Below are positions 12,991 to 38,966 of a stretch of DNA of 38,966 nt, piece after piece. The position numbers and the translations under genes are program-made. Numbering within the stretch: the first letter of the stretch is position 1; the number at the start of each line of letters is the position of its first letter. Source of the stretch: a virus; the IMG/VR virus record IMGVR_UViG_3300020152_000016, positions 1 to 38,966 of that record; one strand, written 5' to 3'. The notes under the pieces are model-generated. The model did no database searches and was not told the DNA's origin. It was given only the letters and a program-made list of their open reading frames with translations.

Positions 12991-13224
12991 ATGGTCGCCG
13001 CAATGGTGATGTACGGCTTTTCTCTTTTGGACGTGCGAAAGCTCTACTACGACGAAATGGAGCAGTATTACTTCGAGACGGTTTTCAACCTCGAAGCAAT
13101 GGGGAGAATGAAGGAAGGGACGTATAATAAACTCATGAACAATACTCGTGAGTCAGCAAAGAGTACGGTCGCCTCTCTGCGTAAGCAGCTCTTTTCGGGT
13201 ATCACTAAGAAGCGGAAGGTATGA
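12991..13224 (+). CDS. Tail assembly chaperone T part (made as GT by frameshift)
   Basis: The frame is open from the slip site (12955) through ATG 12991 to 13224. It encodes MVAAMVMYGFSLLDVRKLYYDEMEQYYFETVFNLE-type helical sequence and a basic end. It is in the -1 frame relative to G, so it is most likely translated as the extension of G and not alone. Its stop overlaps the tape measure start as ATGA at 13221-13224. Confidence 0.85.
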   Translation: MVAAMVMYGFSLLDVRKLYYDEMEQYYFETVFNLEAMGRMKEGTYNKLMNNTRESAKSTVASLRKQLFSGITKKRKV

Positions 13225-15488
13225 ACGAGAAACTGACCGTAGGCGAGCTGGTGTACAAAATCTCCGGCGACATAGATAACCTGAAGACCGAGCTGAAGAA
13301 GGCAGAGGCAGAGGTCGGCAAGCTCACCGGCTCAATGGAGAAGAACATCGTCGCGGGCAACCGCATGACGAAGACGATAGGCGGACTCTCGAACGTACTG
13401 AAGGGCTTTCTCGCCCTCGCAATCGTGGACCGCGCCGCGAGCTTCTTGACGGACTTCCTTCGTCAGTCGTCGGCTGCTGCATCAGACCTGAACGAGACGC
13501 TCACGAAGACGGGCGTGCTTTTCGGTGGAGAGGCACAGGACATCATCACCTTCGCGCAGAACGCCGCTCGTGAAATGGGTATCTCCCGCCAGGCTGCGCT
13601 CGATGCCGCAGGTACGTTTGCCGTGTTCGCAAAGTCGGCAGGACTCGCGGGAGACGACCTCACGACCTTCTCTACTGACCTGGTGAAGCTGTCCTCGGAC
13701 CTTGCCTCGTTCTATAACACCTCACCAGAGGACGCTATCGTCGCAATCGGCGCGGCACTTCGCGGAGAGACGGAGCCTATCCGTCGCTACGGTGTGCTTC
13801 TCGATGACGCTTCTCTCCGCCAGGAAGCGTTCCGTCAGGGACTCATCACCACTACGAAGGATGCACTGAAGCCGCAGCAGCGCGTCCTCGCTGCACAGGC
13901 TCTCATCCTCCGTCAGACGAACGACGCGCAGGGAGACTTCGCCCGCACCGCAGACGGCGTTGCGAACAGCCAGCGCACCGCAGCAGCAGAGACACGGGAC
14001 TTCCAGGCTGCAATCGGTCAGGCTCTCCTCCCTACCACAGCGACCCTCATCGAGGAGTATCGTCAGATGCTCATTGGTGCGAACGACGCTGCGAGCGGCA
14101 TGCGTATCTTCGGACAGGCAATCTTCGGGGGTGCGAAAATGATTATCGGCACTACGAAGGCTCTCTTTGGAATGGGTCAGGCTCTCGTCGCAACTGCGAA
14201 GACGACCTGGGGATTCCAGAAGCTCTACTTCACAGCAATGGGCAACGTGGTAAAGAGCACATTGAACGCGGGTAAGGCGGTCCTGAAGCTCTTTAGCGGA
14301 GACTTCGAGGGAGCAGTTGAGGCAGCTAAGGGTGCGCTCGACTTCTCAAAGACAAAGGACGAGTTCGCTTCGTTCGCTTCTTCCGTGAAGTCAGAGTGGG
14401 GAGCGGTGAACGATACCCTCGTATCTGCCGGTGATGACATTATCGAGGCATACAACCCAGCAGCATACGATGATGCGCTCCAGAGGTTCCAGCAGAGCGC
14501 AGCAGCAGCCGGAGACGCATCGAAGGGACTCGGAGAAGACCTCAACGGTCCTGGAGGCGTTTCAGACGGCGCGAAGAAGGCAGCAGAGGCGGTAGAGCAG
14601 CTCCAGGGGAAGGTAGTGAGCCTTATCGACGCATCAAAGAATGCAGCTAGGGTCCTTCAGGATGACCTCAACGCCGCCTTCAAGCAGTTCAGCACTGACA
14701 TCGCATCGAACGTCCAGGAAACGGTCGAGGGCGCAGCACAGATTTTCGTAGACGCAGAGCAGCGTATCAAGGACCTGAAGGCACAGCTCCGCGAGGCTGA
14801 CGACGGGGACGCACGCAAGGAAATCCGCACCGAGATAAAGGCGCAGGAGGAGATTCTCGATGCCCGTGAGGACTTCGAGGAAAGGCAGTCAGAGCGCATC
14901 GCTGCAATCCGCACAAAGCTCGCAGAGGTCGGTATCGACGCTACACAGGCGGGACTCGATAAGGTCCTGGAGCTTCGCTCACTGGAGTCAGAGATTGAGG
15001 AGCAGCGTCGTCTCGCATCACTCGATGAGTTCACTCGCTTCGAGCAGACACAGGCAAAGCAGCTCGCGGTCCTCACCGACTCCTTCATCACAGAGGTCTC
15101 TCTCATCAAGACGAAGATTGAGACGCAGAAGAACTACGAAGCAGACCTTACCGCCTTCCTCGCTTCAGAGGACTCGAAGCGTCTCGACCAGACCGACGCA
15201 TGGGCGGCTGCGACAATCTCGAAGTACGCAGAGGTCGCTGACTCTCTCCGCTCACTCATGTCTACACAGGCTCGCATCGGTGAGCTGACGGTCCCTTCAT
15301 TGACCGGCAATACCTCTAACGCTGCACGCGCAGCATCCTTCGCAACGCAGCCTGGAGCATCGAGCAGCACCACGAACAATACGAATATCACCGCGCCGGT
15401 GAACGTCGGAGGTGAGCGCATCCAGAACCTCAACCCGAAAGAGTTGAGTGCTATACTTGGATTCGAGTTGGGTAAGTTCATCCGCTAA
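13221..15488 (+). CDS. Tape measure protein
   Basis: Protein of 755 residues, the longest in the tail module apart from the adhesin. It has an N-terminal coiled coil (LKTELKKAEAEVGKLTGSMEK), a hydrophobic stretch (VLKGFLALAIVDRAASFLTDFL), a TMP-like core (FAQNAAREMGISRQAALDAAG, LAQ-type helices) and long charged coiled coils near residues 500-640. Using about 0.15 nm per residue the tail would be near 113 nm. It starts inside the stop of the GT frame. Confidence 0.93.
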   Translation: MNEKLTVGELVYKISGDIDNLKTELKKAEAEVGKLTGSMEKNIVAGNRMTKTIGGLSNVLKGFLALAIVDRAASFLTDFLRQSSAAASDLNETLTKTGVLFGGEAQDIITFAQNAAREMGISRQAALDAAGTFAVFAKSAGLAGDDLTTFSTDLVKLSSDLASFYNTSPEDAIVAIGAALRGETEPIRRYGVLLDDASLRQEAFRQGLITTTKDALKPQQRVLAAQALILRQTNDAQGDFARTADGVANSQRTAAAETRDFQAAIGQALLPTTATLIEEYRQMLIGANDAASGMRIFGQAIFGGAKMIIGTTKALFGMGQALVATAKTTWGFQKLYFTAMGNVVKSTLNAGKAVLKLFSGDFEGAVEAAKGALDFSKTKDEFASFASSVKSEWGAVNDTLVSAGDDIIEAYNPAAYDDALQRFQQSAAAAGDASKGLGEDLNGPGGVSDGAKKAAEAVEQLQGKVVSLIDASKNAARVLQDDLNAAFKQFSTDIASNVQETVEGAAQIFVDAEQRIKDLKAQLREADDGDARKEIRTEIKAQEEILDAREDFEERQSERIAAIRTKLAEVGIDATQAGLDKVLELRSLESEIEEQRRLASLDEFTRFEQTQAKQLAVLTDSFITEVSLIKTKIETQKNYEADLTAFLASEDSKRLDQTDAWAAATISKYAEVADSLRSLMSTQARIGELTVPSLTGNTSNAARAASFATQPGASSSTTNNTNITAPVNVGGERIQNLNPKELSAILGFELGKFIR

Positions 15489-18188: not shown

Positions 18189-20321
18189 ATGATATTTTTC
18201 CTCAACAGCGCGAATCGGGTATACAACGACCGTGAACTGAACAAGGTTGCAGGGATTCTCTTTGGAGACGGCGTTTTCAATACTGTAGCTGCTACGCTCG
18301 CAGCGTGGAGGTCGGGCGGGGACTTCCTCGTAGAGGGAGCGGGAGGAAGCATGAACATCACCGCTCGTCCTGGCTCGGCAAGCACCCAGGTCCTCTCTGA
18401 AGGAGAGACGCAGCGCATCATCATTACCGAGGACAATCAGCTCTCCGCAGCCGTCGCAGCGAACGTCGGACTCGCACAGCGCAACGATGCGGTCGTGCTC
18501 CGCGTCCTTCAGTCAGTCATTACCGGCGACACCCTGAACTCGGCGGGCAGCAATGCGGTCGTGCTCACGGTCATCTCCGGCTCCTCTGCGACAGCTCTCA
18601 CTGACGCAGAGATTTCCGTCGCTCTCGGAAGCGACCCATTCATCCGTCTTGCTAACATCCTCGTACCTCTCGGTGCTTCAGAGATTACCCAGAGCATGAT
18701 TACGGACGTGCGCTCAATGGTGAGTGCGAGTCCTTCAGTGAAGCTCGGCTCCTCTATCCTCCGTACTATTCCGATGACGGACGACCCTACTGACCTTCAG
18801 CAGGGCGATATTTGGTACAACTCAACGGAGCGTATCCTGAAGATGTACAACGGCGAGAGCGTCATCTCTCTCCAGACCGAAGACTTCGATTGGGGCTACT
18901 ACCCTCCGAACGGCATCGCATCGAACGCGGAGGACTTCGAGCCTGTGGCTGAAGTGAGCACCGATGAGGGGGTCGGAGCCGTGCAGGTTTATCAGGTCAT
19001 GGACCCAGGCAATCCCTCGAATGCTGGCTCTAACTTCTGCGGACAGGTCTTCGTCATGCCTGATATTGCGAACCCATTTATTCGCGTGAAGCTCGGCAAC
19101 CCAGAATATCAGGGAGGCGTTGTCTTCGATGTGTACTCGGTGAACGGCAGCTACCAGCCGGTCGCTTCTATCCAGGGAGTCGGCTCCTTCGCTCCAGGGA
19201 GTGCTCCAGTGAACGACTGGGTGGACCTGAATCTCGACGGCTCTCTCTACACTCCTGGGACTGCATACATGCTCATTGCCCGCGTCTATCAGCCTGGCTG
19301 GATAAATGCAGGAGATAGTGATTTCAAGATAGGTATTGTGCAGACCGGAACCCGCGAGGATGACTCTGTATTCAAGGTCTTCAAGAGTACGGGCGTAGGC
19401 TCATACACCTCGAACCCATTGAGCGCAACGTGGAACACGAGTACGGACGGAGACGGAGCAATGCTCATGACAATCGCAGAGCGCGGCTCCCTTGCCCTCG
19501 GCAGGACTGACGTTTCAGGACACGCATACAAGGTCTCCCAGGCATTTACCGCGAAGTCGAAGGATATGACCGGATTCATTCTGGTCTCTGGTGCTGATAC
19601 CGGCTCGCCTACTGACGACATCAACGCGACACTCTACGCCGCAGACAACGACGACCTCCCTACTGGACCTGCTCTTGCTACTGCTCTCATCACAGAGACG
19701 GACTGGCTCGCGGGAAGCCTCGGTAGTGAAATGGAGTTCCCTATCGACTACGACCTGCTCGTGGTGGGTGAGCGGTATGTGGTCGTCATCGAGACGGAAG
19801 ACCACGACGATGACAACTACTACACCGTGCTCTACGGAGCGAAGGCATCGGGAGGAGGTGCGTCTCGCTGGAACACGGCGAACGGCTGGGTCGCTCTCAA
19901 CGGGGACCTTTATTTCAGCGTCCGCACTTCATCAGCGAAGAAGATTCCTACGACCGGAGACGACGGTAAGATTCCTGCTGAACTCATCCCTGTCGTACCT
20001 CCACGCGTAGTCTCCCTGGCTTCGTCTGCGACTCCTGCCTATAACGTCGATGATGTGGATGCGGTGGTCATCCCCGCTCTTGCGACGAACATCACGGACA
20101 TGAGTACCTATCTTCTCGGTACTCCGAGCGATTTCCAGCGTCTCCGTTTCCGCATCACCGCATCAGGAGGTATCCGCACCGTTGCCTGGGGTACGAAGTT
20201 CGCCGCATCAGGTGTCGCACTCGATACCTCAATCGCATCGGGTAAGACTCTCAATGCGGAGTTCTGGTGGGACGCGGTGCTCTCGAAGTTCACTCTCATC
20301 TCATCGTCAGAGACGGCATAA
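18189..20321 (+). CDS. Tail fibre / receptor-binding protein
   Basis: Protein of 710 residues, MIFFLNSANRVYNDRELNKVAGILFGDGV at the N-terminus, which is probably the tail-attachment part. The middle has two jelly-roll-like segments (VFDVYSVNGSYQPVAS with DWVDLNLDGSLYTPG, and VSQAFTAKSKDMTGFILVSGADTGSPTDDINATLY). A short DDGKIPAELIP linker precedes a C-terminal head domain (VVSLASSATPAYNVDDVDAVVIPALA). These are typical of fibres that bind host glycans. The start follows a TATACT box. Confidence 0.8.
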   Translation: MIFFLNSANRVYNDRELNKVAGILFGDGVFNTVAATLAAWRSGGDFLVEGAGGSMNITARPGSASTQVLSEGETQRIIITEDNQLSAAVAANVGLAQRNDAVVLRVLQSVITGDTLNSAGSNAVVLTVISGSSATALTDAEISVALGSDPFIRLANILVPLGASEITQSMITDVRSMVSASPSVKLGSSILRTIPMTDDPTDLQQGDIWYNSTERILKMYNGESVISLQTEDFDWGYYPPNGIASNAEDFEPVAEVSTDEGVGAVQVYQVMDPGNPSNAGSNFCGQVFVMPDIANPFIRVKLGNPEYQGGVVFDVYSVNGSYQPVASIQGVGSFAPGSAPVNDWVDLNLDGSLYTPGTAYMLIARVYQPGWINAGDSDFKIGIVQTGTREDDSVFKVFKSTGVGSYTSNPLSATWNTSTDGDGAMLMTIAERGSLALGRTDVSGHAYKVSQAFTAKSKDMTGFILVSGADTGSPTDDINATLYAADNDDLPTGPALATALITETDWLAGSLGSEMEFPIDYDLLVVGERYVVVIETEDHDDDNYYTVLYGAKASGGGASRWNTANGWVALNGDLYFSVRTSSAKKIPTTGDDGKIPAELIPVVPPRVVSLASSATPAYNVDDVDAVVIPALATNITDMSTYLLGTPSDFQRLRFRITASGGIRTVAWGTKFAASGVALDTSIASGKTLNAEFWWDAVLSKFTLISSSETA

Positions 20322-20326
20322 ACAAT

Positions 20327-22744
20327 ATGAAGGAGCGAATCCGAAAGCTGATAGAAGGCAAGAGGAGCCGCAAGGAACGCGCAACGATAAAGGGCGCGGA
20401 GATTGCTCGTATCGACATGGCGAAGCGGTATGAGCGACCAGGCAGGTTGCAGATAGAGATTGTGAAACTGGAGCCTATAGAGGGCGGTGTCGTCGTATAC
20501 GCTCGTGCTTTTCATCGTGGAAGGCAGATTGGATTCGGTGAAGGTGGTGTCGTCGATATTGAACGCTTCCCTATCTACAACCCTCCTATTCTGGTCCCTG
20601 ATGAGAACGGAGACATCGTTCGCGTAGGAACGGGCGAAGACGGTCAGGAGACCGCATACAGGTTCCGTGAGGACCCAGAGGAGGCAATCTTGCAGGTCAT
20701 CGAGCACAACATCTCGGTGATGACTAACATACACGGTCCGAAAAATATCCAGCCTGGACGTATCGGCAGCACCACGAGTACCTTCTACGCTGCTGCGGGA
20801 GACGGCTTTGCTTGGGCGCGAAAGGATAGCTGGAGCGATGTCGTGAACTCGCCTAATGCAAGTACAAAGAGCGGAAGCACGAGCGGACAGTTCAGCCATA
20901 TCGACACGGAAGACCCTATCTACGCCGTAAACTGGCCGGATGGAAGTTCCGGAAATCATTACGGTGCTCGTCTGTTTTTCCCTTTCGATACCAGCGCACT
21001 ACCAGACACCGATACTATCTCTGCTGCAACCTTTAGCGCATGGCTCAACTCTAAAGCTCTCGGAAGTGGTGGTCAGGCAGCACTCCAGTATGCGCGTCTC
21101 GTACAGAGCACCCAGGCGAGCGGTACGGCTATCGTTGCTAACGATTACGGGGCGGTCGGTTCAACTGCTGGTTCCGCGACTGACATCAACGTGAACGCAG
21201 CGTCTACTGGCGCATATCAGAATCTCACCCTCAACTCGACTGGTCGCGGCTGGATAAGCAAGACTGGATATACCAAGTTCGCTCTTAGGAGTGGTTGGGA
21301 TATTACAAATACGCAGCCTTCCAGCTCAAACTATGCGAACAACAACGCTGGTGTCTGGGCAATGTCAGAGACGAGCGGCACGACGAACGACCCTAAGCTC
21401 GTCGTTGAACACGCGACAGCGAACGCGGTCCCTACCACGACGACCCAGGCGGCTTCCGCAATCACTTCTTCAGGAGCAACCGCGAACGGAAACATCACCG
21501 ACACCGGAGTCCCGACCACGATTACGATGCGCGGCTTCGTATACGATACTTCCTCGAAGTCTCTACCAGGAAACGTCGCTCCTGGCTCGTCCGGATATGC
21601 AAGCTCATCGACTGAATCAGGCTCATTCGGAACCGGAGCACACACTCGCTCACTCTCCGGTCTTTCACCGAACACGACATACTACTACCGCGCCGTCGCG
21701 CAGAACGGTACGGGATACGCATACGGCGAAGAGCAGTCTTTCACCACTCTCGCAAACCTCCCTACCGTATCGACTGGTGCTGCAACGAGCGTTGCAAAGC
21801 TGACTGCTACCGCGAACGGAAGCATCGACGCAACAGGAGGAGCGAACGCTACGAAGCGCGGCGTTGTGTACGGTACGTCCTCGCAGTCGGCTCCTGGAAA
21901 CGTCGCTCCTGGTTCCTCTGGATATGCGAACGACAGCAACGAGGCTGGGTCTTTCGGCACAGGCGCATTTTCTCGCAACCTTACCGGACTCGTGGTATCG
22001 ACGACGTACTACTATCGGGCATACGCGCAGAATAGCGCGGGCTATACCTACGGCTCGGAGCAGTCTTTCACGACCCAGGCTCCGGACGTTCCGACTCTCA
22101 CCACGGAGGCTATTACCGAAGTAGAGACGACGAGCGCGGTAGGAAACATGAACATCACAGACGACGGCGATGAGAGCGTCGATGTCATCGGCTTCGTCTA
22201 CGACACCGAATCAAAAAGTCTCCCTGGAAACGTCGCTCCTGCATCATCGGGGTACGCGGAATCGGTCGAGGATTCCGGAGGTCCTTTCGCTGAAGGAGCG
22301 CACTCGATTCCTCTGACAGGGCTTCCGGAGGAGACGGTCTTCTATGTCCGCGCATACGCGCAGAACGCGGCAGGGTACGCCTACGGAGACGAGGAAACTT
22401 TCAATACGCCATATAAGGCTCCGACTATTACCTCGGTCTCTCCGGCAGGTTCGCCTCTCGACGTAGAGACTCCTTTCACCTTGTACGGAACGGAGTTCAT
22501 GGAGGGCGCGACGATTACGATTGACGGGGAACTCTGCACGGAGATTGAGTTCGTGGATGAGGAGACCCTCACCGCCGTCGCTCCGTCTCGCAGCACTTCC
22601 GGTCTCCGGACTCTGGTGGTCGAGAATCCAGACGGCAAGACCGCATCGACCGTCTTCGCCTACATGGAGGTCATTCCTGAACCTGCTCCCGCAAAGACTG
22701 TGAGCGGCTCCTTCGCCGTGGAGGTATCCGGATTCATCGAGTAG
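20327..22744 (+). CDS. Adhesin-like fibre protein with three Fn3-like repeats and an IPT/TIG domain
   Basis: Protein of 805 residues. Domains in order: a basic helical N-terminus (MKERIRKLIEGKRSRKERATI), a region of about 120 residues unlike anything I know, a DNRLRE-like beta-sandwich (GARLFFPFDTSALP ... DPKLVVEHA, about 190-380), three Fn3-like repeats (TYYYRAVAQNGTGYAYGEEQSFTT; bases about 21430-21750, 21751-22080, 22085-22410) and an IPT/TIG domain (APTITSVSPAGSPLDVETPFTLYGTEF). Such proteins bind cell surfaces. Start ATG 20327 lies 5 bases after the previous stop; a longer in-frame start would overlap the fibre gene. Confidence 0.82.
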   Translation: MKERIRKLIEGKRSRKERATIKGAEIARIDMAKRYERPGRLQIEIVKLEPIEGGVVVYARAFHRGRQIGFGEGGVVDIERFPIYNPPILVPDENGDIVRVGTGEDGQETAYRFREDPEEAILQVIEHNISVMTNIHGPKNIQPGRIGSTTSTFYAAAGDGFAWARKDSWSDVVNSPNASTKSGSTSGQFSHIDTEDPIYAVNWPDGSSGNHYGARLFFPFDTSALPDTDTISAATFSAWLNSKALGSGGQAALQYARLVQSTQASGTAIVANDYGAVGSTAGSATDINVNAASTGAYQNLTLNSTGRGWISKTGYTKFALRSGWDITNTQPSSSNYANNNAGVWAMSETSGTTNDPKLVVEHATANAVPTTTTQAASAITSSGATANGNITDTGVPTTITMRGFVYDTSSKSLPGNVAPGSSGYASSSTESGSFGTGAHTRSLSGLSPNTTYYYRAVAQNGTGYAYGEEQSFTTLANLPTVSTGAATSVAKLTATANGSIDATGGANATKRGVVYGTSSQSAPGNVAPGSSGYANDSNEAGSFGTGAFSRNLTGLVVSTTYYYRAYAQNSAGYTYGSEQSFTTQAPDVPTLTTEAITEVETTSAVGNMNITDDGDESVDVIGFVYDTESKSLPGNVAPASSGYAESVEDSGGPFAEGAHSIPLTGLPEETVFYVRAYAQNAAGYAYGDEETFNTPYKAPTITSVSPAGSPLDVETPFTLYGTEFMEGATITIDGELCTEIEFVDEETLTAVAPSRSTSGLRTLVVENPDGKTASTVFAYMEVIPEPAPAKTVSGSFAVEVSGFIE
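21569..22260 (+). repeat. Three Fn3-like coding repeats
   Basis: The core GGAAACGTCGCTCCTG occurs at about 21570, 21896 and 22225, so the unit is about 326-329 bp. The protein repeats are clear and the DNA between the cores has diverged. This can allow repeat gain or loss by recombination. Confidence 0.75.
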
Positions 22745-36015: not shown

Positions 36016-36225
36016 ATGCACAAACTCTGCGAAGCTGACGAAACAGCACTAAAGGCGTATCTCGTTCCGGAGCTGAACTTCCAGCAGTCGCTCCTCACTG
36101 ATGTCGAGGAGGCGATAATGAAGGGAGCCGAGGGGGAGTATCTCGACATCCTGCACAAGCGTCAGGAGCGCATCGGAGGACGTATCAAGTCGCTCGTGAA
36201 TATCCAGCATCACTTTGGTCTATGA
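36016..36225 (+). CDS. Small helical accessory protein
   Basis: Protein of 69 residues, MHKLCEADETALKAYLVPELNFQQSLLTDVEEAIMKGAEGEYLDILHKRQERIGGRIKSL. Predicted helical. No family recognised. Overlaps the next gene as ATGA at 36222-36225. Confidence 0.65.
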   Translation: MHKLCEADETALKAYLVPELNFQQSLLTDVEEAIMKGAEGEYLDILHKRQERIGGRIKSLVNIQHHFGL

Positions 36226-36821
36226 AGGTTCAGCTCTATCACGCAACCTGCCCGAAGTCTGCGGACCTCATCGAGCGCATAGGATTCAGGGACCGCATCG
36301 GCGCGAAGGTGTCGCGCTGGGAAGGCTCCGGCATGAGCCGTCCTGGATTCGTGTACCTCACCCGCGCCTACTCGATTTACTACGCGGAGAACGCGGCAGG
36401 GAAGGACCACATGGCGAGCGTCTTCCTGGTCGAGGTCGATACGAAGGACCTCTATCCGGACGAAGACTTCCTCGCATCTGCTGGGGTGGCGAAATCGAAG
36501 ACAGGCGACCTGGAGCGGTACAAGGAGTTCGGAGAACTCTCTCTGGAGCGTCTCGGAAACGTCGCCGTGCGTCCGGAAGCAATCCGCATCCTGGAGCGCA
36601 GGGACCTCTCTACGGAGGGGCTGTGGAAGTACAGCGACCCGTCGATGTCGCAGATGAACTACGCAATCATGGGAGCCTATTACCGTGAGCTTTCTGATGC
36701 GTGGTTCCAGGGTCGGGACCTGGATTCGGTCGAGGGTCCCTTCGGCTCACGCGAGCAGTTCATCGCTGACACCATGAAGGCATCAGCAGCAAAGGGCGGA
36801 GGACCAGTCGGAGAGATATGA
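36222..36821 (+). CDS. ADP-ribosyltransferase-like (ART fold) protein
   Basis: Protein of 199 residues. LYHATCPKSADLIERIGF (4-22), GFVYLTRAYSIYYAENA (42-58), a hydrophobic strand ASVFLVEVDTKDLYPDEDF and VRPEAIRIL (about 132) follow the order of ART-fold enzymes (H in YHaT, Y in VYLT, acidic residue later), as in KptA and PARP-like proteins. These use NAD to modify protein, RNA or DNA. In a phage it could be a host-takeover or anti-defence factor. Assignment by motif pattern only. Confidence 0.6.
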   Translation: MKVQLYHATCPKSADLIERIGFRDRIGAKVSRWEGSGMSRPGFVYLTRAYSIYYAENAAGKDHMASVFLVEVDTKDLYPDEDFLASAGVAKSKTGDLERYKEFGELSLERLGNVAVRPEAIRILERRDLSTEGLWKYSDPSMSQMNYAIMGAYYRELSDAWFQGRDLDSVEGPFGSREQFIADTMKASAAKGGGPVGEI

Positions 36822-37344: not shown

Positions 37345-37974
37345 ATGGAACCTCTCGCACCGCCGCCGAAGCGCGGCATGACACAGAAGCACAAGGACCT
37401 TCGGGACACCGCGATTCGCTGGCTGTACGAAAAGGGCTGTCATATCTATGCGAAGGAAGTTCCGACAGAGAACGGCAACGCGGACGCGCTCGGTATCAAA
37501 GCTCCGCGCAACGGACGGGAGACGGTCTACTACATCGAGGCTAAGGCATCGCGCAATGACCTCATCTGCCTGAAGCAGAAGCAGGTGTATCGCCGCTCGG
37601 TCGGAGCGCATCGGGAGGAGAAGTGCTACCTCCACATGATGCAGCGACCAGAGGGGCATCTGTTCACCAGCATCACGGTCGAGGAGTATGAGAAAGCGGT
37701 CGCTGAATGCAAGGAGTGTTTCGAGATTCGCCGCAAGCACGGCGATACCGGCATCGACTACTACTACCTCATCGTTGCGGACGGAGTGAAAGTTGAGGAA
37801 GACCTGTACCCAGGCTGGGGAATCATAAACGAGAAGGGAGAGGTCGTGCGGCGTGCGAAGCGCATGAAGCGCGAGGGCGACTGCAAGCGGCTCATCATCG
37901 AGGTCGCGCACGTCCTTGTGTATAAATGCTTCGGGAAGCTGTACCTGGGAGAGTATAATGGGGATACGGGCTAG
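37345..37974 (+). CDS. PD-(D/E)XK nuclease-like protein (MmcB-like)
   Basis: Protein of 209 residues. NGNADALGI (D47), VYYIEAKASRNDL (E65, K67) and QKQVYRRS (78-85) are the D-ExK-Q pattern of PD-(D/E)XK nucleases of the MmcB-like type. GIDYYYLIVADGVKVEEDLYPGWGII is the following strand region. The role may be DNA repair or attack on host or rival DNA. The last codons run into the tmRNA gene: its stop TAG is part of the tmRNA acceptor stem. Confidence 0.75.
   Translation: MEPLAPPPKRGMTQKHKDLRDTAIRWLYEKGCHIYAKEVPTENGNADALGIKAPRNGRETVYYIEAKASRNDLICLKQKQVYRRSVGAHREEKCYLHMMQRPEGHLFTSITVEEYEKAVAECKECFEIRRKHGDTGIDYYYLIVADGVKVEEDLYPGWGIINEKGEVVRRAKRMKREGDCKRLIIEVAHVLVYKCFGKLYLGEYNGDTG
37954..37959 (+). 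promoter_or_regulatory. -10 box TATAAT of the tmRNA gene
   Basis: A perfect TATAAT lies inside the end of the nuclease gene, 8 bases before the mature tmRNA 5' end at 37968. A weak TTCGGG (37930-37935) lies 18 bp upstream. So the tmRNA probably has its own promoter. Confidence 0.65.
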
Positions 37975-38336
37975 CCAGGCTTTGACGGCTCTCTGTTCCT
38001 TGCATCGTGCATAGCTGCTAAGGCGACCTCAAAGGACGGTCGCAAAAGAGAAATGCAAACAGCATTCGCTCACCGTTCTATCCGACAGTCGCGGACGCAC
38101 AGCGTTCAGTCGTCTTCGCATAGAACTGTCGCGCCGAGAGATACTACTGGTATCGGTTGCGGCATCATCACAGTAGTTGGTGGAGGAAGAACCCGCCGCC
38201 CTTCATCGTAAAAGCTGAAGGTAGGCAGCGAGGTTGAGAAGCCTCGCAAAACGAGCTGACGCGGTACGTCAGATATGCTATGTAGATTCGTGCAGGGAGG
38301 GGAGTTCGGACGCGAGTTCGATTCTCGCCTAGTCCA
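37968..38336 (+). ncRNA. ssrA: Phage-encoded transfer-messenger RNA (tmRNA)
   Basis: Acceptor 5' strand GGGCTAG (37968-37974) pairs with CTAGTCC (38329-38335), including the G3-U70 wobble read by alanyl-tRNA synthetase. AGGCTTTGACGG follows, as in bacterial tmRNA. At the 3' end TTCGGACGCGAG, the T stem GCGAG/CTCGC (38312-38316, 38324-38328) with loop TTCGATT, and discriminator A38336 match E. coli tmRNA closely. The resume codon GCA (38055-38057) follows CGCAAAAGAGAAAT, the same length as in E. coli. The tag has 22 residues, begins ANSIRSPF, ends QRSVVFA, stop TAG 38121-38123. A CTGACG/CGTCAG pseudoknot stem lies near 38258-38275. CCA is not encoded. Length 369 nt. tmRNA frees stalled ribosomes and tags their products. 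Confidence 0.93.
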
Positions 38337-38345
38337 CAATAGAGA

Positions 38346-38373
38346 AGGTCCGCGCATTTCACGCGGACCTTTG
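38346..38373. terminator. Bidirectional terminator between tmRNA and the minus-strand gene
   Basis: AGGTCCGCG and CGCGGACCT (38346-38354, 38362-38370) form a perfect 9-bp stem with a 7-base loop. A short T-run (TTT) follows on the plus strand, and TTCTCTATT follows on the minus strand. It can end transcription from both sides. Confidence 0.75.
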
Positions 38374-38627: not shown

Positions 38628-38966
38628 ATGCGGAGCAAACTTTCTATTGTCATCATGGCTCATCCGGATAGGGCGCACTTCATCCCCTACCTCCAGGAGC
38701 GTCTCGGCGGGAGTGTTCCCGTGGTCTACGACGAGAGGCAGAATATCTGGGACACATGCCGTCGCGCATGGCTCGCAATCGACCGTGAGGCAAGATACGG
38801 ACTCGTCATCCAGGACGACTCAATCGTGTGCGACGATTTCCTGAAGAAGGCACACCGGCTTCTGAAGGAGGACGCTGTGTACTCTTTCTACGCGGGCGAC
38901 CTGCTCCGCACGCGCATAACGCGAGCGGTGCGTCAGGGAGCGAAAGAGGTTCGGGCTGGACACATC
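38628..38966 (+). CDS. Glycosyltransferase-like protein A, N-terminal part (continues at base 1)
   Basis: The frame opens MRSKLSIVIMAHPDRAHF and runs to the contig end; the last 127 bases repeat 1-127, so the gene finishes at 370. It holds the WDTCRRAW segment and the QDD motif. The start follows a TATAAT box by 7 bases with no Shine-Dalgarno sequence. See the entry at 1-370 for the rest. Confidence 0.78.
   Translation, partial: MRSKLSIVIMAHPDRAHFIPYLQERLGGSVPVVYDERQNIWDTCRRAWLAIDREARYGLVIQDDSIVCDDFLKKAHRLLKEDAVYSFYAGDLLRTRITRAVRQGAKEVRAGHI
38840..38966. repeat. 127-bp terminal direct repeat, right copy
   Basis: Identical to bases 1-127. It joins the two halves of one gene in frame, so the contig is circular or circularly permuted. 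Confidence 0.97.

Follow-up and report, generated by a model that had tools for sequence, protein, structure and literature searches.

A phage-borne one-piece tmRNA gene with an uncommon tag end in a compact tailed-phage genome

The phage genome and the tmRNA locus

The window, by which we mean the whole stretch of viral DNA that was analyzed (38,966 nt), begins with a 127-bp repeat (positions 1–127, + strand) of which there is an exact copy at 38840–38966. Assemblers often leave an exact end repeat of this kind when they close a circular sequence, and the contig closes on it to a genome of ~38,839 bp. The closed join is crossed by a glycosyltransferase-like gene on the + strand (38628–38966, then 1–370), and this gene aligns with those of two relatives, at 56% identity over 188 aa to G202 and 54% over 175 aa to G203. 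The join is therefore real and the tmRNA described here lies inside a complete tailed-phage genome of ~38.8 kb. Recognizable among its products are the terminase, a portal protein with a head-morphogenesis domain, the prohead protease, the major head protein, the distal tail protein and a holin, along with a replication initiator, RecT, a YqaJ exonuclease, a helicase and NinG. ARAGORN found no tRNA gene in the window, and neither an integrase nor SmpB was recognized among the proteins scanned.

The tmRNA (ssrA) gene is of the one-piece type and occupies positions 37968–38336 on the + strand, from its 5′ end to the discriminator base A73, as delimited by ARAGORN, the Rfam model RF00023, the predicted fold and the stem coordinates. 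It is the sole RNA gene that either Rfam or ARAGORN recognized in the window. It is placed between a gene for a 209-aa protein and the glycosyltransferase-like gene, which is its downstream neighbor. The upstream gene (37345–37974, + strand) belongs to phrog_631, a family of unknown function, and by eye its product is like a PD-(D/E)XK nuclease, for which Pfam gave no confirmation. The last 7 nt of this gene, including its stop codon TAG, fall within the acceptor stem of the tmRNA. Because the stop codon lies there, cutting a read-through transcript at 37968 to form the 5′ end of the tmRNA would turn the upstream message into a non-stop mRNA. Gene overlaps with bacterial tmRNA genes have been described (PMC4131195); the overlap seen here may be regulatory or accidental.

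The signals around the gene are weak. A candidate −10 element, the TATAAT box at 37954–37959 (+ strand), lies inside the upstream gene, with 8 nt between it and the start of the tmRNA; the hexamer occurs seven times in the window against 4.3 expected, which is unremarkable. A promoter scan called no sigma-70 site and found no good −35 box upstream of the tmRNA, and a search around the TATAAT box for a recurring promoter motif did not establish one. Directly 3′ of the tmRNA there is a 12-bp hairpin (38345–38371, + strand) that we list as a weak candidate terminator; on the + strand it is followed by only a short U-rich tail, and the scan had reported it for the − strand.

Two other features of this part of the genome were noted. 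The first is a sugar/surface cluster (38628–38966 joined to 1–2803) that adjoins the terminase gene and contains two glucosyltransferase-like genes, a DXD glycosyltransferase, an FkbM methyltransferase and a MobA-like NTP transferase; this cluster is conserved in the relative G210. The second is a 199-aa protein (36222–36821) that has no Pfam, PHROG or PADLOC match and by eye is reminiscent of an ADP-ribosyltransferase-like fold.

As expected for a tmRNA carried by a phage, the ssrA gene is intact and is flanked by phage genes in both directions, not by host DNA. The preliminary description had accepted that an identical sequence in a bacterial chromosome would expose the contig as chimeric. 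This concern has not been borne out, as the genome closes without host flank and an exact-match test with a 22-mer spanning the resume codon found no copy in ~85,000 bacterial and archaeal species genomes. That a bacterial ssrA gene was joined onto a phage contig during assembly is, in our estimation, extremely unlikely. The gene is represented by a single contig and a second copy of the tmRNA was not found in the collections searched, but closure through the exact repeat, the alignment of the join-spanning gene with relatives along its length, the overlap of the tmRNA with the upstream ORF and its phage-like G+C content (55%, against 56% for the phage) all argue against an artifact.

Anatomy of the tmRNA

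The preliminary description, made from the sequence by eye, held that all parts of a one-piece tmRNA are visible and proposed Infernal and ARAGORN as checks; both searches support it. ARAGORN called a single tmRNA in the window, at 37968–38337 (+ strand), and a cmscan search against Rfam 15 matched RF00023 at 37968–38339 (+ strand), covering model positions 1–374 with 70.7 bits (E 1e-25). The match thus extends over the whole RNA and exceeds the curated cut-off (gathering score 47). It is nevertheless low for an intact tmRNA, as nearly all full-length chromosomal matches scored above 90: the range was 94–220 in our Bacillota sample, except for one second-copy match of 71.9, and 108–199 in the Verrucomicrobiota sample.

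The nested fold of the RNA has a predicted energy of −148.8 kcal/mol, compared to −124.6 ± 5.4 for shuffled sequences (z −4.5), and none of 100 shuffles equaled it. In the tRNA-like domain, GGGCTAG (37968–37974) pairs with CTAGTCC (38329–38335) to form an acceptor stem with the G3-U70 pair that is typical of alanine tRNA, followed by the discriminator base A73 at 38336, and the T arm GCGAGTTCGATTCTCGC is present at 38312–38328. The encoded tail (38337–38339) is CAA and not CCA, so the CCA end must come from the host.

In the remainder of the molecule, a hairpin with the arms GCGACC and GGTCGC (38023–38043, + strand) stands at the position of PK1, upstream of the resume codon; its complement was located and it is paired in the nested fold. 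The P5 helix (38075–38126, + strand), formed by GTTCTAT (38075–38081) and ATAGAAC (38120–38126), encloses the last part of the tag frame together with the stop codon. Directly after it is a PK2-like element (38127–38177, + strand) with a stem at 38127–38137/38153–38164; the second pairing of this element, 7 bp between the loop ACTACTG (38143–38149) and CAGTAGT (38171–38177), is inferred from their perfect complementarity. Four pseudoknots are typical of tmRNA (PMC11915505). Fold and complement searches gave the PK1- and PK2-like elements and did not recognize PK3 or PK4 in the phage tmRNA; hairpins at 38228–38247 and 38256–38272 fill the PK4 region.

The open frame of 22 codons and the paired stems indicate that the phage tmRNA is not decayed, although its anatomy and tag are read from a single sequence. 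The same features bear on whether the RNA could be a decoy or inhibitor that sequesters host SmpB or the tmRNA machinery instead of rescuing ribosomes. There is a precedent in mycobacteriophage DS6A, whose tag-less, tRNA-like tmRNA is reported to inhibit the endogenous tmRNA (PMC4131195, PMC11915505). However, in the RNA described here the mRNA-like domain is complete, the tag frame is open and stems resembling those of pseudoknots are retained, none of which a decoy would need, and we judge such a role very unlikely.

The tag frame and the tag end

Two tag frames can be proposed. The preliminary description had read a 22-residue tag, ANSIRSPFYPTVADAQRSVVFA (38055–38123, + strand), which resumes at GCA 38055 and ends at the stop codon TAG (38121–38123). 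ARAGORN agrees on the tmRNA but gives a tag of 10 residues, ADAQRSVVFA (38091–38123, + strand), resuming at GCG 38091. In Escherichia coli the base that matters most for the choice of frame is the A at position −4, A86 (PMC2481249). The sequence before GCA 38055 is AAAT, and as A stands at −4 before both candidate starts, this base does not separate them. We favor the 22-residue frame because its GCA lies 11 nt past the end of the PK1 hairpin (38043) and because AAATGCAA aligns with the consensus resume region in Rfam. The 10-residue tag appears less likely and was set below it, since GCG 38091 sits within the P5 hairpin. With the longer frame, the RNA would have the usual arrangement of a resume codon soon after PK1, an A at −4, an open tag frame and a stop codon in P5.

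Both frames share the same stop codon and therefore the same C-terminus, SVVFA, and the observation in the preliminary description that the tag ends in VVFA and not in LAA or VAA stands whichever is correct. Among the matches listed from a pattern-based search of IMG/VR, 55 of 65 distinct ARAGORN tags end in AA and none in FA. On the chromosomal side, 63 loci were surveyed, most of them from Bacillota and Verrucomicrobiota; a tmRNA was called at 62, with tags that nearly always end in AA (49 in LAA) and never in FA. In these small, biased samples an FA end is uncommon, and we do not claim that it is unique. Some other viral tmRNA calls also have tags without an AA end (L153, L149 and L112/L122, with KAVA, VPVA and VLVAV). 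These are either real variants or ARAGORN frame errors; some are probably misreadings and they were left out as support.

The tag lacks the C-terminal LAA, or similar AA end, of tags read by ClpXP, and it also lacks the NYAFA motif of the Mollicute-type tags read by Lon, with which only the final FA agrees. The preliminary description had gone further, taking the lack of LAA or VAA to mean that tagged phage proteins would be released without degradation if host ClpX does not read the tag. This step does not follow: Lon reads the Mollicute tags that end in AFA (PMC9382460), so a VVFA end does not imply stable products. The idea that rescued proteins, some of them from the phage, are released and kept does draw on the tag itself, which lacks the AA end of 55 of the 65 viral tags listed and of nearly all of the 62 chromosomal ones, and on the finding that ClpX binding drops when the C-terminal LAA is changed, for example in the DAS variant (PMC9382460). 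Besides the Lon precedent, however, a hydrophobic C-terminus ending in alanine is still degron-like and there is no clear gain from keeping truncated proteins, and we consider rescue without degradation distinctly improbable.

Relatives and gain of the gene

Searches with the terminase and major head protein identified a group of related phages. In four of these, G202 (37.3 kb, terminase 70% identical), G203 (36.8 kb, 67%), G210 (36.3 kb, 66%) and G206 (39.3 kb, 47%), the structural genes are colinear with those of the window and the replication genes partly so. A tmRNA was found in none of the 28 relatives searched, many of which are fragments; the absence carries weight chiefly for the near-complete records, on three of which Rfam was run. 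In G203 only 36 bp separate the glycosyltransferase gene from the end of the ORF that precedes it, and there is no tmRNA unit at that place. As the 28 relatives are without a tmRNA, the gene appears to have been gained in this lineage after its split from the known relatives and not to be an ancestral remnant. The window also differs from the relatives checked (G202, G203, G210, and L180) in G+C content, 56% compared to 34–44%, despite terminase identities of 66–74%, a difference that may reflect a host switch.

The phage collection showed no DNA similarity to this tmRNA at the default threshold, and two viral contigs contain an exact copy of 25 bases from the tRNA-like domain, neither of which has a related one-piece tmRNA. 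Another 35 viral contigs had come up as potential relatives through the tape-measure-like protein (13221–15488) and were rejected, as they share a domain with it and have no other gene of the window and no tmRNA. Residues 86–270 of this protein are ~50–63% identical across these otherwise unrelated contigs, and appear to be a widely exchanged domain.

A gain of this kind could also have left the phage with a passenger, that is, a host ssrA gene captured through an integration site or by transduction and kept without a selected role. Integration of phages into ssrA and the capture of ssrA fragments are well known (PMC9004378, PMC11590407), and the relatives of this phage do without a tmRNA. However, no integrase was recognized among the scanned proteins and the gene is full-length, which does not fit a prophage attP copy or the 3′ fragment that integration would leave, and that it stays whole in a compact genome points to use. 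We therefore regard a passenger gene as improbable.

Host searches

A comparison of the tmRNA DNA with 195 Verrucomicrobiota genomes gave a single 36-bp match and nothing longer, and a terminase profile run against ~300 Bacillota and ~300 Bacteroidota genomes gave distant matches (best E about 1e-21). We also tried to approach the host through the tail-region protein at 20267–22744, which has several purple-acid-phosphatase-N/fn3-like repeats and a TIG domain; weakly similar proteins were mostly from Bacteroidales and Verrucomicrobia, with one from Paenibacillus, and no assignment was made. Judging from the repeat style of this protein, the SSB sequence and the gene content of the distant relative G224, a host among the Patescibacteria may be suspected.

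These searches bear on the possibility that the tag is matched to the host, with ssrA having been taken from a bacterium whose own tmRNA has an FA-ending tag, so that another protease such as Lon reads the tags and the end is ordinary there. The long FA-ending tags of Mollicutes provide a precedent (PMC9382460), the G+C content of the tmRNA is about that of the phage, and our surveys covered mainly Bacillota and Verrucomicrobiota hosts, so that a host from another phylum is possible. On the other hand, no FA-ending host tmRNA was found among the chromosomal loci surveyed, the 22-mer from the resume region has no exact copy among the species genomes searched and the Verrucomicrobiota genomes gave no match above 36 bp. 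We treat a host-matched tag as a tentative possibility, on balance unlikely, although it is a special case of the explanation we prefer and not exclusive with it.

Proposed role of the phage tmRNA

Trans-translation with AlaRS, EF-Tu and SmpB is an established pathway, and the intact anatomy of the phage tmRNA points to ordinary trans-translation. In our view the gene is likely a functional phage ssrA that provides extra ribosome rescue during infection, gained by this lineage and positioned between the replication/recombination module and the glycosyltransferase gene. The tmRNA would be transcribed during infection, its ends trimmed and the CCA tail added by the host, after which host AlaRS would charge it with alanine through G3-U70. 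Host SmpB, which would be needed because none was recognized among the scanned ORFs, and EF-Tu would then engage the charged RNA, and ribosomes stuck on mRNAs that are broken or lack a stop codon would be freed, the stalled protein gaining the charging alanine and then ANSIRSPFYPTVADAQRSVVFA. Expression, charging, SmpB binding and rescue are all steps that we infer from the sequence. The most likely benefit is a larger capacity for rescue at a time when the mRNAs of host and phage are being degraded, with the tag still sending the products to some host protease. Rescue appears a likelier benefit than tagging, since the function of the tag peptide was not critical in a plaque assay with a tmRNA-dependent phage (PMC2481249).

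A more elaborate scheme would have the tag diverged from that of the host, so that rescued proteins avoid or switch protease and rescue is split from degradation, while the upstream transcript, once processed, supplies the tmRNA with a built-in target; we consider this scheme a long shot.

Comparison with known phage tmRNAs

The gene is a new member among the known phage tmRNAs, with an uncommon tag, a small genome and, apparently, a gain within its group. Phage tmRNAs are known, and a gene that one phage of a compact group has and its relatives lack, with a tag end unseen in the sampled tags, makes a convenient test case for the question of whether phages want rescue, tagging, or a tag of their own.

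The RNA resembles the one-piece bacterial tmRNA of RF00023 in its full-length match, G3-U70 pair, T arm, resume region, stop codon in P5 and PK1- and PK2-like stems, and differs from it in its low score, the 22-residue VVFA tag, the CAA tail and the unrecognized PK3 and PK4. With other ssrA-carrying phages it shares an ssrA gene within the phage genome; here, however, that genome is ~38.8 kb and without tRNA genes, and there is no DNA similarity to the tmRNA in the phage collection at the default threshold. The phages compared in this respect are much larger. The view in the preliminary description that a tmRNA is rare in a 39-kb phage holds within this clade and less so in general, as at least four viral contigs of 40–43 kb (L095, L119, L127, and L131) have ARAGORN tmRNAs and one survey found tmRNAs in 402 of 18,146 phage genomes, or about 2% (PMC9004378). 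A named list of ssrA-carrying phages is also available (PMC4131195).

Three further systems can be compared. The methylophage Melnitz likewise has a complete phage tmRNA without evidence of integration, for which a role during infection was proposed; its genome, however, is 141.5 kb and its gene is permuted, two-piece and under a glutamine riboswitch (PMC9004378), whereas the gene here is one-piece and Rfam found no riboswitch in the window. DS6A also carries a phage copy of the tRNA-like domain but is without the tag and the mRNA-like domain (PMC4131195, PMC11915505), both of which are kept here. Lastly, the Lon-read NYAFA tags of Mollicutes (PMC9382460) are similar to the phage tag in being long, in having an aromatic-alanine (FA) end and in lacking LAA; only the last two residues agree, the phage has a G+C content of 56%, and we claim no homology between them.
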